Origin: Candidatus Omnitrophota bacterium
GTDB lineage: Bacteria > Omnitrophota > Gorgyraeia > Gygaellales > Gygaellaceae
Length of the DNA stretch: 35,187 bases
Direction of reading: 5' to 3'
Assembly: GCA_018400015.1 (NCBI GenBank)
Contig: JAGYNB010000009.1
Coordinates: 1-35,187 of the forward strand
In this document: positions 27,518 through 34,868 of the stretch, one piece after another
How the letters are laid out: every line of letters begins with the position of its first letter
Numbering within the stretch: position 1 is the stretch's first letter
Position numbers and translations under genes: made by a program
Notes under the pieces: generated by a model
What the model was told of the DNA's origin: nothing
Databases searched by the model: none
The model's input: only the letters and a program-made list of their open reading frames with translations

Positions 27518-28042
27518 ATGCGAAAATCTCACTTACCTGAGAAAGTAAAACTAATTACAGGCCTTATTGCAGAAGATAAAAATCTTTTCGATGAGGCTTT
27601 TTTTTATTTAGAAAGAAAATTCTCTAAAATTGATTTTAAATCAGACCTGTTGGACTTTAAAAACACTAACTACTACAATAATGAAATCGGCTCAAACTTA
27701 AAAAGAATGTTTATTAGCTTCAGGCGCTTTATAAACCAAGAGACACTTGCTGACATAAAACTATTTGCAAATAGACTTGAAAAAAAGCTTTCCAGAAACA
27801 ACAAGAGAACGATTAATATCGACCCTGGATATTTAACGCTTTCCAAACTGGTTTTAGCAACAACGAAGGATTTTTCTCACAGAATTTACATAAAAAAAGG
27901 TATTTATGAAGAAGTAACTCTGCTTTTTAAAAAAGACACCTTTACGGAACTTGAGTGGACATACCCTGATTACAGAACAATAAAATACATCGAAACGTTT
28001 AATCATATAAGGCGTATTTACCAAACACAGATATCCCAATGA
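27518..28042 (+). CDS. DUF4416 family protein
   Basis: A 174-aa protein matching DUF4416 (Pfam PF14385): KVKLITGLIAEDKNLFDEA, then NYYNNEIGSNLKRMFISF, the conserved INIDPGYLTLSKLVLATTKDF and FTELEWTYPDYRT. The function is unknown; it is found mainly in anaerobic or deep-branching bacteria. ATG 27518 is chosen over the TTG three bases earlier. Its stop overlaps the M48 gene start (ATGA). Confidence 0.88.
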   Translation: MRKSHLPEKVKLITGLIAEDKNLFDEAFFYLERKFSKIDFKSDLLDFKNTNYYNNEIGSNLKRMFISFRRFINQETLADIKLFANRLEKKLSRNNKRTINIDPGYLTLSKLVLATTKDFSHRIYIKKGIYEEVTLLFKKDTFTELEWTYPDYRTIKYIETFNHIRRIYQTQISQ

Positions 28043-28884
28043 AAAATTTATTAGTGCTATCTTTTCTATTAATTTGCTGCGGCTGCGCAAGCGTATATAA
28101 TCCTGCTTTAGGTAAAAATGAATTTATCTTTATAAATACTCCTCAGGAAGTTGCTTTAGGAAAAGCGCTTAACGCACAAATGAAGCTTGAGGTAGCGGTA
28201 TCAAAAGATGAAAAACTAAACACCAGACTGAAAACAATCGGTACCAAGGTTGCCTTTAATAGTGATAGACAAGACCTGCGATTCGTATTTAATGTAGCGA
28301 ACGACAAAGAACTCAACGCATTCGCACTTCCGGGTGGATTTATCTATATAAATTCCGGACTTATGGAACAGGCAACGGATGATGAATTAGCCTGTGTTAT
28401 CGCCCATGAAATAGGCCATGTGGCAGCAAAACACTCTGTAAAAAGGCTTCAGGTAACTTTAGGTTATTCCATTTTACTGAGTCTAGTATTTAACGAAGCA
28501 AAGTATGTTGATACAAAAAAGGCGATTGATACGGTTTTTAACTATGTTGCCTTAGGTTACAGTAGAAGTGATGAGCGCCAGGCAGATGCGCTGGCAGTAA
28601 AATATGCCTATGAGGCAGGCTTTAACCCAGAAGGCATGGTGAGTTTCTTTAGAAAGCTTGAGACAGAAGCAAAAAAACAAGGCAGAAGCCGGCCGCTGGT
28701 TTTTTTTAGTTCTCATCCGCCAATAAATGAACGTATAAAGTACACTCAAGAAAACATTGAGAAAATAAAGAACAACCAAAGATTGATAGACTGCGATATA
28801 AAAATATGCCCTAAATGCAAAAGAACATACTCTAAAGAATTCAACTATTGCGAGGATGACGGGGAAAAGCTAACCTGTAAATAA
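28039..28884 (+). CDS. M48-family metalloprotease lipoprotein with a zinc-ribbon-like tail
   Basis: A 281-aa protein with a lipoprotein-type signal (hydrophobic core, then CCGC with Cys 16 as likely lipidation site) and an M48 domain with HEIGH (H123, E124, H127) and the third ligand in SDERQADALAV. It resembles BepA/LoiP-like proteases that check outer-membrane protein assembly. The last 30 residues carry CPKCKRTYSKEFNYCEDDGE, a zinc-ribbon-like pattern rare in an exported protein. It sits between DUF4416 and amrS. Confidence 0.88.
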   Translation: MKNLLVLSFLLICCGCASVYNPALGKNEFIFINTPQEVALGKALNAQMKLEVAVSKDEKLNTRLKTIGTKVAFNSDRQDLRFVFNVANDKELNAFALPGGFIYINSGLMEQATDDELACVIAHEIGHVAAKHSVKRLQVTLGYSILLSLVFNEAKYVDTKKAIDTVFNYVALGYSRSDERQADALAVKYAYEAGFNPEGMVSFFRKLETEAKKQGRSRPLVFFSSHPPINERIKYTQENIEKIKNNQRLIDCDIKICPKCKRTYSKEFNYCEDDGEKLTCK

Positions 28885-28886
28885 AT

Positions 28887-29837
28887 ATGCCTAAATATAT
28901 TGAAGCTTTTAAAAAAGGCAACTTAAGAAAGAAGATCGAAGCATTGATGCGCATGGAAGAAAATTGCTGTATCTGTCCGCGCAGATGCGGCGTTAACCGG
29001 CTAAAAAATAAGACCGGATACTGCCGTACGGGGCTGTTTGCAAAAGTTTATAGCTACGCGCCGCATAAAGGAGAGGAACCGGTGATATCCGGAAAAAACG
29101 GCTCAGGAACAATATTTTTCTCTGGATGCAACTTAAACTGCTGTTACTGTCAGAATTACCAATTCAGCCAGCTTGATGAAGGCAAAGAAGTCAATAAAGA
29201 AACTCTGTGTGATATGATGCTGGAGCTACAAAAACAAAAATGCCACAATATAAACCTTGTAACACCAACCCATGTAAGCGCTCAAATCTTAGACGCATTA
29301 GAACTTGCCATAACCAAGGGCCTGAATATCCCTATTGTCTATAATACTTCCGGATATGAATTGCCTGAAGTGATCGAAATCCTTAATAACGTTGTGGATA
29401 TTTATCTTGTAGACATGCGTTATGGCGATACAAAACTAGCTACAAAATACTCTAATGCCACAGATTACACTGAATATAACCAGCAAAGCGTAAAAGAAAT
29501 GTTTAAACAAGCTCCGAGTGCAAAAATAGAAAACGGCATTATGACCGAAGGCATAATCATAAGACATTTAGTATTGCCGCAAGATATTGGCGCTACTGAA
29601 AGAATCGCCGAATTTATAAGTAAAGCTCTTTCCAAAGGTATTCATATCAGCTTAATGAGCCAATATTTCCCGTTCTGTAATGCAAAGAAGTATCCTGAGA
29701 TAAACCGTAGGATCACCAAGAAAGAATACGCCCAGGCTAAGGTAATAATGAAAAAATATGGCCTTACAAACGGCTGGGTGCAGGAAGATAATGGCCTGAT
29801 TGATTTAGCAGGCGTAAACTTAAAAAGAAATATTTAA
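28887..29837 (+). CDS. amrS: AmmeMemoRadiSam system radical SAM enzyme
   Basis: A 316-aa radical SAM protein: CCICPRRCGVNRL near the N-terminus, then GCNLNCCYCQNYQFSQ with cluster Cys 81, 85 and 88, THVSAQILDALELA, YNTSGYE and the conserved end SQYFPF. This matches AmrS (PflA-related). Its substrate is not known. The Memo partner is at 6823, so the system is split across the region. It starts two bases after the M48 gene. Confidence 0.93.
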   Translation: MPKYIEAFKKGNLRKKIEALMRMEENCCICPRRCGVNRLKNKTGYCRTGLFAKVYSYAPHKGEEPVISGKNGSGTIFFSGCNLNCCYCQNYQFSQLDEGKEVNKETLCDMMLELQKQKCHNINLVTPTHVSAQILDALELAITKGLNIPIVYNTSGYELPEVIEILNNVVDIYLVDMRYGDTKLATKYSNATDYTEYNQQSVKEMFKQAPSAKIENGIMTEGIIIRHLVLPQDIGATERIAEFISKALSKGIHISLMSQYFPFCNAKKYPEINRRITKKEYAQAKVIMKKYGLTNGWVQEDNGLIDLAGVNLKRNI

Positions 29838-30804: not shown

Positions 30805-31602
30805 ATGAGAATAATCATTATACTATTAATCGGGGGCGTCTTAGTATTTAGCTACGTAAAATATCTTGAGAAAACTGCGATATTCTTCCCGGAAAAAAAC
30901 CTCACTAGTACGCCCAAAGAAATAAATATCGATTTTGAAGATATTTATTTTACTACCTCTGATGACCTTAAGCTAAACGGCTGGTTTATCCCTAATGCCA
31001 ATGCAAAACATACAATTGTTTTTGCACACGGCAATGCTGGTAATATCTCTGGCAGAACCGACAAAATAAAGCTTTTAAAAGAACTGAACCTAAACATATT
31101 TATATTCGACTACCGCGGTTATGGTAAAAGCCAAGGCTCTCCCACTGAAACCGGCATATATACAGATACAAAAGCAGCTTATGAATGGCTTACAAACATA
31201 AAGGGAATAAATAAAGATTCAATTATCGCCTTAGGAGTATCTTTGGGAAGCGCTGCGGCAATAGATCTAGCCAGTAAAGTAAAACTAAAAGCCTTGATCA
31301 CAGAAGGCGCTTTTACCAATGCAAAAGACATGGCCAGAAAACTCTATCCGTTTTTACCTGGTTTTATCTTCGGCGTAAAGTTCGATTCGATCAACAAAAT
31401 AAAAACAATTGAGATACCGAAATTATTCATCCACAGTAAAACTGATGAAATAGTGCCGTTTGAATTATCGCAAAGACTTTATGAAGCAGCAAAACAACCA
31501 AAGACACTTCTTGCTTTAAACGGAACACATAATGATTCGTTTTTATTGCAATCGGGGGATTATTTAAAAGGCATAAAAGACTTTATAAAAAGTTTAGATT
31601 AG
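30805..31602 (+). CDS. membrane-anchored alpha/beta hydrolase (ABHD13/BEM46-like)
   Basis: A 265-aa protein with an N-terminal membrane segment (about 2-16) and an alpha/beta hydrolase domain: FAHGNAGNISGR (oxyanion region), DYRGYGKSQGSP, nucleophile S146 in GVSLGSA, D214 and H242 completing the triad. It belongs to the BEM46/ABHD13-like group of esterases or peptidases of unknown substrate. The pattern TEGAFTNAKDMAR is also typical. It starts 16 bases after the prepilin. Confidence 0.9.
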   Translation: MRIIIILLIGGVLVFSYVKYLEKTAIFFPEKNLTSTPKEINIDFEDIYFTTSDDLKLNGWFIPNANAKHTIVFAHGNAGNISGRTDKIKLLKELNLNIFIFDYRGYGKSQGSPTETGIYTDTKAAYEWLTNIKGINKDSIIALGVSLGSAAAIDLASKVKLKALITEGAFTNAKDMARKLYPFLPGFIFGVKFDSINKIKTIEIPKLFIHSKTDEIVPFELSQRLYEAAKQPKTLLALNGTHNDSFLLQSGDYLKGIKDFIKSLD

Positions 31603-31611
31603 GAGGCAGAC

Positions 31612-32373
31612 ATGAAAAAAATTAGCCTTGTTGTAGCTTTATTGTGCATATTTGTTTTTTCAGGTATTTGTTTTGCACAGGATGAGCCAATAGTTGAACC
31701 GATAGAAGAAGTTTCTATCGTAAGCTTGATCGCTGACTCAGAAGATTTTAACGGTAAACGCGTAAGCACCTCAGGATATTTTGTCTATAACACAACTGAA
31801 CAGGCGCTTTATTTATCCACAGAGTCAGCCAATAATCTTCTTACTAAAAATGGTCTCTGGGTAGAGTTATCAGATGAAACAGACCTAAAAGAGAATATCA
31901 ACGAGTTAAAAAACACATTCTGCAATATTCAAGGTATTGTCAATATAGATGAAAAAGGTCCTGATGCTAAATGGAGCACCAGCCTTAATGAAGTAGATGT
32001 AATCATTCCCTTAAGAAGAATGCAACAGGTGGATACAATTGTAGAATCGCCAGTCTTGCAACCAATAGAACCAAAAGCAACAACAATCACTCCAAAAGAA
32101 ATCATGAATATTGCCATGGAAGCAGCCAAAGTAGAAGACCTTGACCTTACTACACGCATTATGTATTTAGATAAAGGCAACGCCGATTGGCTGCAACTGC
32201 TAAACACCTTAAACCCGGAAGATATGCCCGTATATGAATACCTGCAAAACAGAAACTACCAGGCAATCAGATTCTCAATGATAGAAGGTGATGGCGAAGA
32301 TGTATGGTTTTTTATTGACCTTGATACTGGTGAAATGCTCGGGGAATACGAAAATAGACAACTAGACGAATAA
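31612..32373 (+). CDS. secreted protein with an OB-like domain, unknown function
   Basis: A 253-aa protein with a signal peptide (cut likely after Ala 22 in CFAQ). Residues about 35-140 (SLIADSEDFNGKRVSTSGYF ... LYLSTES ... GLWVEL ... NIQGIVNI) resemble small OB-fold proteins that start with 'loop I-A-x-P-x-x-F-x-G-K-x-V'. Residues about 165-250 are a second domain ending WFFIDLDTGEMLGEYENRQL. No catalytic residues can be assigned. AGGAGG lies before the start and the B12/radical SAM gene begins at the next base after its stop. Confidence 0.7.
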   Translation: MKKISLVVALLCIFVFSGICFAQDEPIVEPIEEVSIVSLIADSEDFNGKRVSTSGYFVYNTTEQALYLSTESANNLLTKNGLWVELSDETDLKENINELKNTFCNIQGIVNIDEKGPDAKWSTSLNEVDVIIPLRRMQQVDTIVESPVLQPIEPKATTITPKEIMNIAMEAAKVEDLDLTTRIMYLDKGNADWLQLLNTLNPEDMPVYEYLQNRNYQAIRFSMIEGDGEDVWFFIDLDTGEMLGEYENRQLDE

Positions 32374-34287
32374 ATGCCTGCAAGACTTAAAAAATCCTTC
32401 AGCTATGTAAACAGCGTATTAAGTTTTGTAGTTTTGGGATTTTTTTTTGAACCTGCAATATTCACATCTTACCTTAGCCAAAACGTTAGAGACTCGATAT
32501 TCGGCATACCAATATTGCTATTTTTTATTACTCTAAGATTAATATTTTTTAGCGGTGCATATGCTACGCTTATTGAAATAGCAAGCGATGAAAACCTTAC
32601 CTTTTCTTTTAAAAACTTCCTCAACAACTTAAAAGAATACTGGAAACTATATCTAGCGTTAAGTATTATTCCAATAATTATACATTTTTGGTTATTTTTA
32701 ATTTTTCCTTATAAAAATATTCCCTATACAGGATTAAGCACATTCCTGGACGTATTGATTCTTTATATCCTGGCTTCAGTGATAATCGATAAAAAATACT
32801 TAAGAAAACTGCGTATTCCTAAAAACAAAATCAATATTAAACCAAACGATATTCTTACAATATTATCGATTGTTCTTGTAAGTATCGGTTTGGTAAACAT
32901 AGCTCACCCAATTGAAATAAAACTATTTCACCTATACAGGGTAATTCTCTTTGCGATTAAATATCTTCATTTTTTACTGTTTTTTTATATCTGTTTTTTA
33001 ATTCTTGATAACCATACCGAAATTAAACAATCAATCGAAACTGATAGTGAGATTTATATGATTTTACCTAAAAGTTCCGCAACAATACCAGGTGCAATAT
33101 CGCTTATACTAAGATTGTATACGCCTGTATTTGCAGTATTGAGGGCAATGACTCCTGCAAGATATAAAATAAGAGAATTTAATCAAGTTATTTGGCGCAA
33201 AAGATTCTTTAAGCCTAAAAAGCTGGTAGCTATAACCTGTTTTACATCTAACAGCCCAGAAGCCTATAAGATAGCCGAATCTTTTAGAAAAGCAGGCTCA
33301 AAAGTTGTTATGGGCGGGCCCCATGTGAGCTTTTGCGCTGATGAAGCTTTAGAATATTGCGACAGCGTGGTAATTGGGGAGGCAGAGGGGGTATGGGAAG
33401 AAGTCGTCAAAGATTATGAAAACAACAGCTTAAAACCTAAATACAACGCACCAATACTAGAGAACTATTATGAGAAAACCACTGAAAAGATGCTTATGCT
33501 TCCTCCAAATGTACTAGCAAAAAGCCTTTCCACAGGAAGGGGCTGTAAATTCAACTGTTTTTTTTGCACAATTCCGATACTGTGTGGTAGAAAGATCAGA
33601 AAAATTCCAGTCTCTGATATGATCAGACTCTTTAAAAGAGCCAGTCTGAAAATTAAAGAAATAAAATTTATGGATAATAATATCTACTCAGACCCTGTAT
33701 ATGCAAAAGAACTGTTTAAGGCAATGATCCCGTTAAGAATCAGATGGACTGCTTCGTCCAGCCTTGATATTGCAAAGGACCCTGAAGCCTTAGACCTTGC
33801 CAAGCGCTCAGGCTGCAAAATACTTTTAATCGGTTATGAAATTACAGACTCCTCAATAGAAAAAGAAAAAAAAGGAAAATTTAGTTTGGCAGATGACTAC
33901 ATAAAACTGTCAGGGATAATCAGAAAAAAAGGCATTGGAATAAAAGCGCATTTTATCTATGGCTTTGATTCAGATACCTTAAAAAGCCTATGGACCCTAT
34001 GGAAGTTCTGCTTCAGACTGCCGGCAGATTACACATGTATAAACTTTTTAACACCCCTGCCAGGTACTAAGCTGTACCAGGATAAACTCGCCAACAATGA
34101 AATAACCAACTTCAACTGGCGCAATTACTCCTTAACAAGGTTCGTAACAAACTCAAAGAACATCAATACAGAAGTCCTAAACTGGTTCCATCCAATAATA
34201 ACATTAGGATTCTTATCAACAACATCATCTGTTGGATTTATTCTGATAATCTTAATAGTAATTACTTATTTATTTTATGTAATTTAA
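32374..34287 (+). CDS. membrane-anchored B12-binding radical SAM enzyme
   Basis: A 637-aa protein. Residues about 10-215 are a membrane region with roughly six helices. About 250-365 is a cobalamin-binding-like Rossmann domain (LVAITCFTSNSPEAYKIAESF ... VVMGGPHVSF ... VVIGEAEGVWEEV). About 375-590 is a radical SAM barrel with CKFNCFFC (Cys 391, 395, 398). A last helix lies near 610-635. B12-dependent radical SAM enzymes often methylate or rearrange unactivated carbons; placement in the membrane suggests a lipid-like substrate. It lacks the usual DxHxxG start of the B12 domain, so cobalamin may not be bound. Confidence 0.85.
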   Translation: MPARLKKSFSYVNSVLSFVVLGFFFEPAIFTSYLSQNVRDSIFGIPILLFFITLRLIFFSGAYATLIEIASDENLTFSFKNFLNNLKEYWKLYLALSIIPIIIHFWLFLIFPYKNIPYTGLSTFLDVLILYILASVIIDKKYLRKLRIPKNKINIKPNDILTILSIVLVSIGLVNIAHPIEIKLFHLYRVILFAIKYLHFLLFFYICFLILDNHTEIKQSIETDSEIYMILPKSSATIPGAISLILRLYTPVFAVLRAMTPARYKIREFNQVIWRKRFFKPKKLVAITCFTSNSPEAYKIAESFRKAGSKVVMGGPHVSFCADEALEYCDSVVIGEAEGVWEEVVKDYENNSLKPKYNAPILENYYEKTTEKMLMLPPNVLAKSLSTGRGCKFNCFFCTIPILCGRKIRKIPVSDMIRLFKRASLKIKEIKFMDNNIYSDPVYAKELFKAMIPLRIRWTASSSLDIAKDPEALDLAKRSGCKILLIGYEITDSSIEKEKKGKFSLADDYIKLSGIIRKKGIGIKAHFIYGFDSDTLKSLWTLWKFCFRLPADYTCINFLTPLPGTKLYQDKLANNEITNFNWRNYSLTRFVTNSKNINTEVLNWFHPIITLGFLSTTSSVGFILIILIVITYLFYVI

Positions 34288-34868
34288 GATAGGTGCTTAT
34301 AGATAAAACTGAACTTTGATATTGATTTTACACATAGGTAGGTTATAACTAAGACAGTATCATACTGCAGATCAGTATAGATCGGCCAGATAAAGTTCTT
34401 TATAACTAAGAACCCCACTATTGTAATAACTAAAATAGTATCTAAATAGTAGATAGTAGAAACAAGAGAGGGAATAGAGAACTTCTTACTTAAGACTTCA
34501 CAAAGCTGATAAAGAGATAGTTGGTTGTAGTCACCTGATATAAGTTTTTGCGCTATTTTTATAATATTGGCCTTTTTGCTCCAGTGTAGCTTAAAAATAG
34601 GGAACAAAAACACTATTCCAAGCCAGTAATAGCTGTAGACTCCTGAAACATTGACAAAAACAATAAAAATGGCTATTATTAGGTTTAATAAGGCTTGGCC
34701 TAAGATAATATGCTTTATGTGGGTGTAATTTGCTTTAATATTAGCATCAGCTGTGAGTTCTTTTTTAACCTGTGGTTTAAATAATAGATAAGCAAACCAT
34801 CTGTAGGTATGAGCATCTGTCTTAATAGTGGAAGAGACTATTTGCTGGGTTTGGGTTAAATCAGCCAT
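34284..34868 (-). CDS. multi-pass membrane protein of unknown function
   Basis: A 194-aa protein with a polar N-terminal 55 residues and about four membrane helices (HIILGQALLNLIIAIFIVFV, YYWLGIVFLFPIF, STIYYLDTILVITIVGFLVI, DTVLVITYLCVK). I recognise no family or conserved polar motif. Its stop overlaps the end of the B12/radical SAM gene by four bases (TTAA), so the two converge. Base composition is like its neighbours. A candidate promoter lies immediately upstream. Confidence 0.72.
   Translation of the reverse strand: MADLTQTQQIVSSTIKTDAHTYRWFAYLLFKPQVKKELTADANIKANYTHIKHIILGQALLNLIIAIFIVFVNVSGVYSYYWLGIVFLFPIFKLHWSKKANIIKIAQKLISGDYNQLSLYQLCEVLSKKFSIPSLVSTIYYLDTILVITIVGFLVIKNFIWPIYTDLQYDTVLVITYLCVKSISKFSFIYKHLS

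Follow-up and report, generated by a model that had tools for sequence, protein, structure and literature searches.

A membrane-domain/B12-binding/radical SAM fusion protein and its putative four-helix partner in Omnitrophota

Radical SAM enzymes acting on lipids are known, and our literature search found no description of one that is a multi-pass membrane protein. Among the radical SAM enzymes that also carry a B12-binding domain, most methylate their substrates, according to PMC13142503. The same text attributes other chemistry, mainly ring formation or rearrangement, to OxsB, HpnJ, BchE, PbsB and the proposed ladderane and tetraether enzymes, and names hopanoids, lipids and porphyrins among the substrates of these non-methylating members (PMC13142503). 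The lower-face residue, below the cobalamin, is placed in the loop after strand 3 (PMC13331322).

Here, we describe a B12/radical SAM protein with a polytopic membrane domain, encoded in a 35,187-nucleotide stretch of DNA (hereafter the window) from a Candidatus Omnitrophota bacterium (assembly GCA_018400015.1, JAGYNB010000009.1). The stretch is contig 69 of a 1.41-Mb genome that is 93.5% complete. Its nearest relative is a MAG assigned to Candidatus Gygaella obscura (Omnitrophota; L050); PMC8542988 describes the genus from a lake in Antarctica. The fusion proteins of the two genomes are 75% identical, and the gene order around them is mostly kept.

Anatomy of the fusion protein

The interval 31612-34287 comprises two genes, one for an exported OB-like protein and one (32374-34287, forward strand) for a 637-residue protein with a six-TM domain, a B12-binding domain, a radical SAM domain and a C-terminal membrane helix. 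This architecture, first proposed in a sequence-only reading of the DNA, is confirmed by Pfam and hydropathy. The N-terminal membrane domain (residues 1-216, 32374-33021) contains six hydrophobic segments, at residues 12-30, 41-59, 92-110, 120-138, 160-178 and 190-208 (Kyte-Doolittle, 19-residue window, mean of at least 1.6), and a seventh at residues 619-637 falls within the C-terminal hydrophobic helix or hairpin seen by hydropathy and in the model (residues 599-637, 34168-34287 including the stop codon). A weaker segment, residues 238-256, is not counted as a membrane helix because the model places it within the B12 fold. The same script finds almost no hydrophobic segments in the soluble relatives (L054-L111), and the membrane segments of the fusion therefore exceed chance expectation. 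These relatives, from several phyla, often occur as tandem arrays of two to three B12/radical SAM genes (∼420, 450 and 480 residues).

The B12-binding Rossmann domain (residues 223-352, 33040-33429) is matched by PF02310 with 41.4 bits against a cut-off of 32.1, over residues 280-344 (profile positions 51-120 of 121), and structurally by OxsB, AerR and others. It precedes a radical SAM core (residues 386-542, 33529-33999) that is recognised by PF04055 (42.7 bits, cut-off 29.5) and by structural matches, and contains the CxxxCxxC motif of the 4Fe-4S cluster at residues 391-398 (33544-33567), found in all 37 long fusion genes. Its fold, motif and Pfam matches thus place the catalytic part of the fusion in the B12/radical SAM superfamily, and we infer that a 4Fe-4S cluster and cobalamin are its cofactors.

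The AlphaFold2 model of the fusion protein is of moderate quality (mean pLDDT 69, pTM 0.60), with pLDDT below 50 in the iron-sulphur loop region (residues 387-407). Within the model, residues 223-635 resemble AprD4 (6fd2) with a Z-score of 20.3 over 363 residues, followed by OxsB (16.9), MgmA (16.2), TsrM (15.4) and CysS (15.4). AprD4 is not known to be cobalamin-dependent, and because it is the closest solved structure, cobalamin use by the fusion enzyme is uncertain. In the search with the whole model, the matches cover residues 223-630. The positive charges of that domain (K+R count) are found at the N-terminus and in loops 2 and 4, predicting an N-in/C-in topology that would place the B12/radical SAM body in the cytoplasm.

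No curated family claims the fusion protein. The equivalogs scanned (HpnJ, ladderane type, BchE and HpnR) were all rejected as far below cut-off: the best curated profile, HpnJ (TIGR03471), reaches 76.1 bits against a cut-off of 577.6 (residues 384-577), the ladderane-type TIGR04072 54.9 against 360 (residues 297-537) and BchE (TIGR02026) 49.1 against 481.35. PADLOC returned only a weak match to the candidate model PDC-M51A (31.7 bits), over the B12/radical SAM part. A Pfam search of 29 N-terminal domains gave scattered weak matches, each in one member, such as DUF624 in one of the 29 at an E-value of 0.0037, with no match in the window's member.

A convergent four-helix partner

Downstream of the fusion gene, on the reverse strand at 34284-34868, lies a gene for a 194-residue membrane protein. 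The two genes meet tail-to-tail with a 4-base overlap of their 3' ends (34284-34287). Proteins of this family are ∼200 residues long, with two to four hydrophobic segments (cut-off 1.3); the window's member has four. Across an alignment of 28 sequences Asp18 and Trp24 are invariant, and the loop between helices 2 and 3 is conserved with the consensus TLYQxxExYSxKYxIPSLVD. Positive charges at the N-terminus and in loop 2 suggest that both lie in the cytoplasm, where the enzyme's catalytic body is also expected; for both proteins the topology is derived from hydropathy and charge. As with the membrane domain, a Pfam search (28 partners) gave only scattered weak matches, each in one member, the best being UbiA in a single member at an E-value of 0.00026. 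Foldseek found no structural match to the partner model (best E-value 2.3), and PDB profile searches found no relative of either the six-helix domain or the partner. As far as these libraries show, the two represent new membrane protein families.

A profile built from five partner sequences matches 20 of 384 Omnitrophota genomes, including all 18 that carry the N-terminal domain. In one of the others (G361) a fusion gene was found with the full-length profile, although the N-terminal profile gives no match there; the match in G009 is weak, carries a stop codon and was discarded as chance. The neighbourhoods examined contain 43 fusion genes or fragments, of which 30 have the partner tail-to-tail with the enzyme. 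The script, with a limit of 120 bases, lists 29 of these, 18 with overlapping 3' ends; the thirtieth is a second copy in L185, overlapped by its partner by ∼46 bases. In two cases (L188, L213) the partner abuts the enzyme on the same strand. Two paralogous reading frames in L193 (2541-5084 and 8001-10598; 847 and 865 residues) carry the partner fused to the N-terminus of the six-helix protein. The remaining nine are arranged otherwise: three stand in tandem ahead of a further copy that is paired (L180 has two of these, L197 one), one (L199) has its 5' end facing its neighbour's partner, two are truncated by contig ends (L182, L212), one is broken (L189), and two are intact without an adjacent partner (L191, L216). 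The L189 gene (5950-8660) is split over different reading frames, through decay or sequencing error, while the partner gene next to it is intact. In L052 (8009-13848) three fusion genes stand in tandem, with a single convergent partner behind the last copy.

Enzyme and partner also diverge together. Distance matrices for 28 pairs correlate at r 0.64 (N-terminal domain) and r 0.57 (B12/radical SAM part), values that none of 2000 free shuffles reaches. When shuffling is confined to paralogues of the same genome, 64 of 2000 shuffles reach the value for the N-terminal domain and 15 of 2000 that for the B12/radical SAM part, compared with 8 of 2000 in the same test between the enzyme's own two halves. 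Since the correlations exceed most of these within-genome shuffles, a given enzyme copy tends to keep its own partner. The 34284-34868 product is the true conserved partner of the fusion enzyme, and we infer that the two form a physical complex. Partner genes normally lie on one strand, and tail-to-tail partners with overlapping stops are unusual; the overlapping stop regions could couple expression of both subunits through their 3' ends.

Distribution, origin and neighbourhood

A scan of 84,980 named genomes, made with two short patterns only, yielded 62 relatives. Four loci, all from Omnitrophota, match all or most of the fusion at 38-75% identity, three from residue 1 or 5 (L050, L051, L052) and one from residue 53 (L053). 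Searched with an N-terminal domain profile, 18 of 384 Omnitrophota genomes yielded 43 matches in all, with up to five per genome. None of these 43 is a stand-alone six-helix domain, and those with short frames are explained by contig ends or one broken gene. The fusion is therefore not a local one, and an assembly artefact is likewise ruled out, as the same architecture is common to 37 long genes from these 18 genomes. At least five hydrophobic segments precede the B12/radical SAM part in 33 of the 37, and a C-terminal segment is present in 36, the exception being truncated by a contig end. Within the order of the source genome (128 genomes) a strong match occurs only in the two Gygaella genomes. 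Outside the phylum, sets of 22, 198, 194 and 199 genomes, searched with the N-terminal profile and no positive control of their own, contained no convincing match. A partial match of 20 bits to profile positions 85-175, in G734, was set aside as chance, the frame being an unrelated membrane protein by eye.

A quick tree of the B12/radical SAM part (72 rows, with 35 of the 178 collected soluble frames and some long branches among the outgroup rows) contains a branch that separates the 37 fusion rows from the 35 soluble rows with an SH-aLRT of 89. In one alignment (A6) the L050 row lacks the start methionine. A soluble paralogue from Gygaella (L040, L041) is the sister group of the fusions, the joint clade having an SH-aLRT of 99. 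The fusions form a single clade and the C-terminal helix is already present in its soluble sister, so the membrane domain of six helices was most probably acquired in one event, later than that helix. The paralogue, with its hydrophobic C-terminus, is present in three genomes (L040:9213-10556, L041:9216-10622, L042:1-1356). Elsewhere, a 721-residue B12/radical SAM protein from a deltaproteobacterial MAG (L082:9812-11977) carries a pair of hydrophobic segments close to the C-terminus and may have become attached to the membrane independently.

The genes around the fusion were also considered. A hydrolase gene (30805-31602) and the gene for the 253-residue exported OB-like protein (31612-32373) lie on the same strand as the fusion. 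The sequence-only reading had joined them to it as anchored hydrolase and secreted partner of one envelope-modification unit, with conservation of these two genes and of the convergent gene proposed as a check. All three are located where that reading had put them, and the same strand and close spacing favour such a unit, as does the OB-like gene directly abutting the fusion, also in Ca. Gygaella obscura. However, among the fusion neighbourhoods only that of Ca. Gygaella obscura has relatives of the OB-like protein, and no relative of the hydrolase appears in any of them, L050 included; only the convergent gene is conserved, in all 18 carrier genomes. Neither protein can be a general partner of the fusion, and an envelope-modification unit of this composition is largely refuted and very improbable.

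At the other fusion loci the upstream gene is mostly a different one each time, and neighbour clustering found no family beyond the pair recurring in more than 7 of 19 genomes. The commonest, at 7 of 19, consists of sensor kinases and response regulators. Their presence could suggest that the fusion descends from a B12/radical SAM enzyme but is no longer a catalyst, serving instead as a membrane-bound sensor of a cofactor or of redox state, and its soluble paralogue (L040, L041, L042) does adjoin FIST-like, histidine kinase and response-regulator genes (assigned by eye). Against this, the CxxxCxxC motif is kept without exception in the long fusion genes and no kinase is adjacent to 32374-34287, leaving a sensor improbable. 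The same clustering found no lipid, isoprenoid or hopanoid gene recurring beside the pair, and no fatty-acid gene recurring beside fusion genes.

Several other loci came to light. Within the window (28039-29837) an M48 peptidase gene adjoins an AmmeMemoRadiSam/NrdG-like radical SAM gene, an arrangement kept in Ca. Gygaella obscura. The source genome also encodes a 1440-residue reading frame with three radical SAM matches (L218:10463-14785; G000 contig C1, ∼294462-298784), set by eye in an apparent O-antigen/ABC-export cluster rich in other radical SAM genes. An apparent fatty-acid or aryl-polyene synthesis cluster (L043, G000:C1:409000-418724), also named by eye, holds ketosynthase, thioesterase, MMPL-type exporter, LolA-like and radical SAM genes, and its B12/radical SAM gene is truncated by the contig end. 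In G056 a radical SAM match (C35:12819-13436) falls within a giant reading frame of 27,888 residues.

Putative function and comparison with known enzymes

We consider it about an even chance (∼0.5) that the pair is an integral-membrane cobalamin radical SAM enzyme with a four-helix subunit, performing radical chemistry on a hydrophobic, membrane-resident molecule. In such an arrangement the N-terminal six-helix domain and the C-terminal helix would hold the B12/radical SAM body at the cytoplasmic side of the inner membrane, and the convergent four-helix protein would be a dedicated subunit whose conserved cytoplasmic loop faces the catalytic body. A hydrophobic substrate (lipid, polyprenyl or quinone-like) could then enter from the bilayer through the six-helix domain, and the 5'-deoxyadenosyl radical would attack an unactivated carbon, followed by methylation or by ring or C-C bond formation. 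Counting against this reading are the two intact fusion genes with no adjacent partner and the finding that lipid-pathway genes do not recur around the pair.

A membrane-resident substrate would be the most natural reading of a catalytic body held in this way. From the architecture this molecule would probably be a lipid, and the lipid as well as the type of reaction performed on it are our guess from architecture and related enzymes. Several of the nearest curated profiles do concern lipids or hydrophobic molecules (HpnJ, ladderane type, BchE, HpnR), but lipids are not singled out by this ranking because PhpK-type P-methyltransferases, RiPP enzymes and AprD4 score close to them. The comparable scores of RiPP (ApyD) and protein-methylating (MgmA) relatives would equally suit modification of a membrane protein or a membrane-bound peptide instead of a lipid, and up to five matches per genome could correspond to several protein targets. 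Yet no conserved neighbour fits such a target, given the variable upstream genes and the low recurrence of any family beyond the pair, and we regard a protein or peptide substrate as unlikely.

Much the same weight can be given to the idea that the membrane part is simply an anchor for an enzyme with a soluble substrate. Soluble enzymes share the catalytic fold, and in the nearest paralogue (L040, L041) a C-terminal helix is the only membrane attachment, although six conserved helices and a co-diverging four-helix protein would be superfluous for an anchor, which makes this explanation doubtful as well.

Extending the reading of a membrane-resident substrate, we tentatively suggest, at odds clearly below even, a cobalamin radical enzyme that is embedded in the bilayer and has a membrane vestibule of its own and a dedicated four-helix subunit. 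It would make a new membrane lipid found only in some Omnitrophota and would have been diversified by duplication, up to several copies per genome. A modified lipid would thus be predicted for a phylum about whose envelope chemistry very little has been learned. A B12/radical SAM body within a polytopic protein, accompanied by a co-diverging subunit, would be a new means of delivering radical chemistry to the bilayer, and it brings with it two membrane protein families, the six-helix domain and the four-helix partner, that have no database name. We found no description of a polytopic B12/radical SAM protein or of this pair, in a literature search that covered titles and the opening lines of abstracts and largely left out subscription papers. 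The fusion family is conserved and, as first supposed, apparently undescribed: an enzyme class already known, here in a membrane version with two components.

How far the fusion departs from that class can be judged from its closest characterised relatives. AprD4 (6fd2), a radical SAM diol dehydratase, is both the best structural match and the best PDB sequence match, but it acts on paromamine, and the match starts at residue 223, so that nothing in AprD4 corresponds to the membrane domain. The similarity to the hopanoid radical SAM protein HpnJ likewise misses the six-helix domain, and no hopanoid gene stands beside the pair, while the likeness to the ladderane-type lipid B12/radical SAM protein consists of the below-cut-off match to residues 297-537. 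Closer to home, the soluble Gygaella paralogue (L040, L041) is ∼40% identical to the fusion and also ends in a membrane helix, but has neither the six-helix domain nor an adjacent four-helix partner. OxsB, TokK, TsrM and CysS share with the fusion a B12-binding Rossmann domain followed by a radical SAM barrel (Z-scores 13-17); to our knowledge, none of these four has a polytopic membrane domain or a membrane subunit, both of which are conserved in the fusion family.
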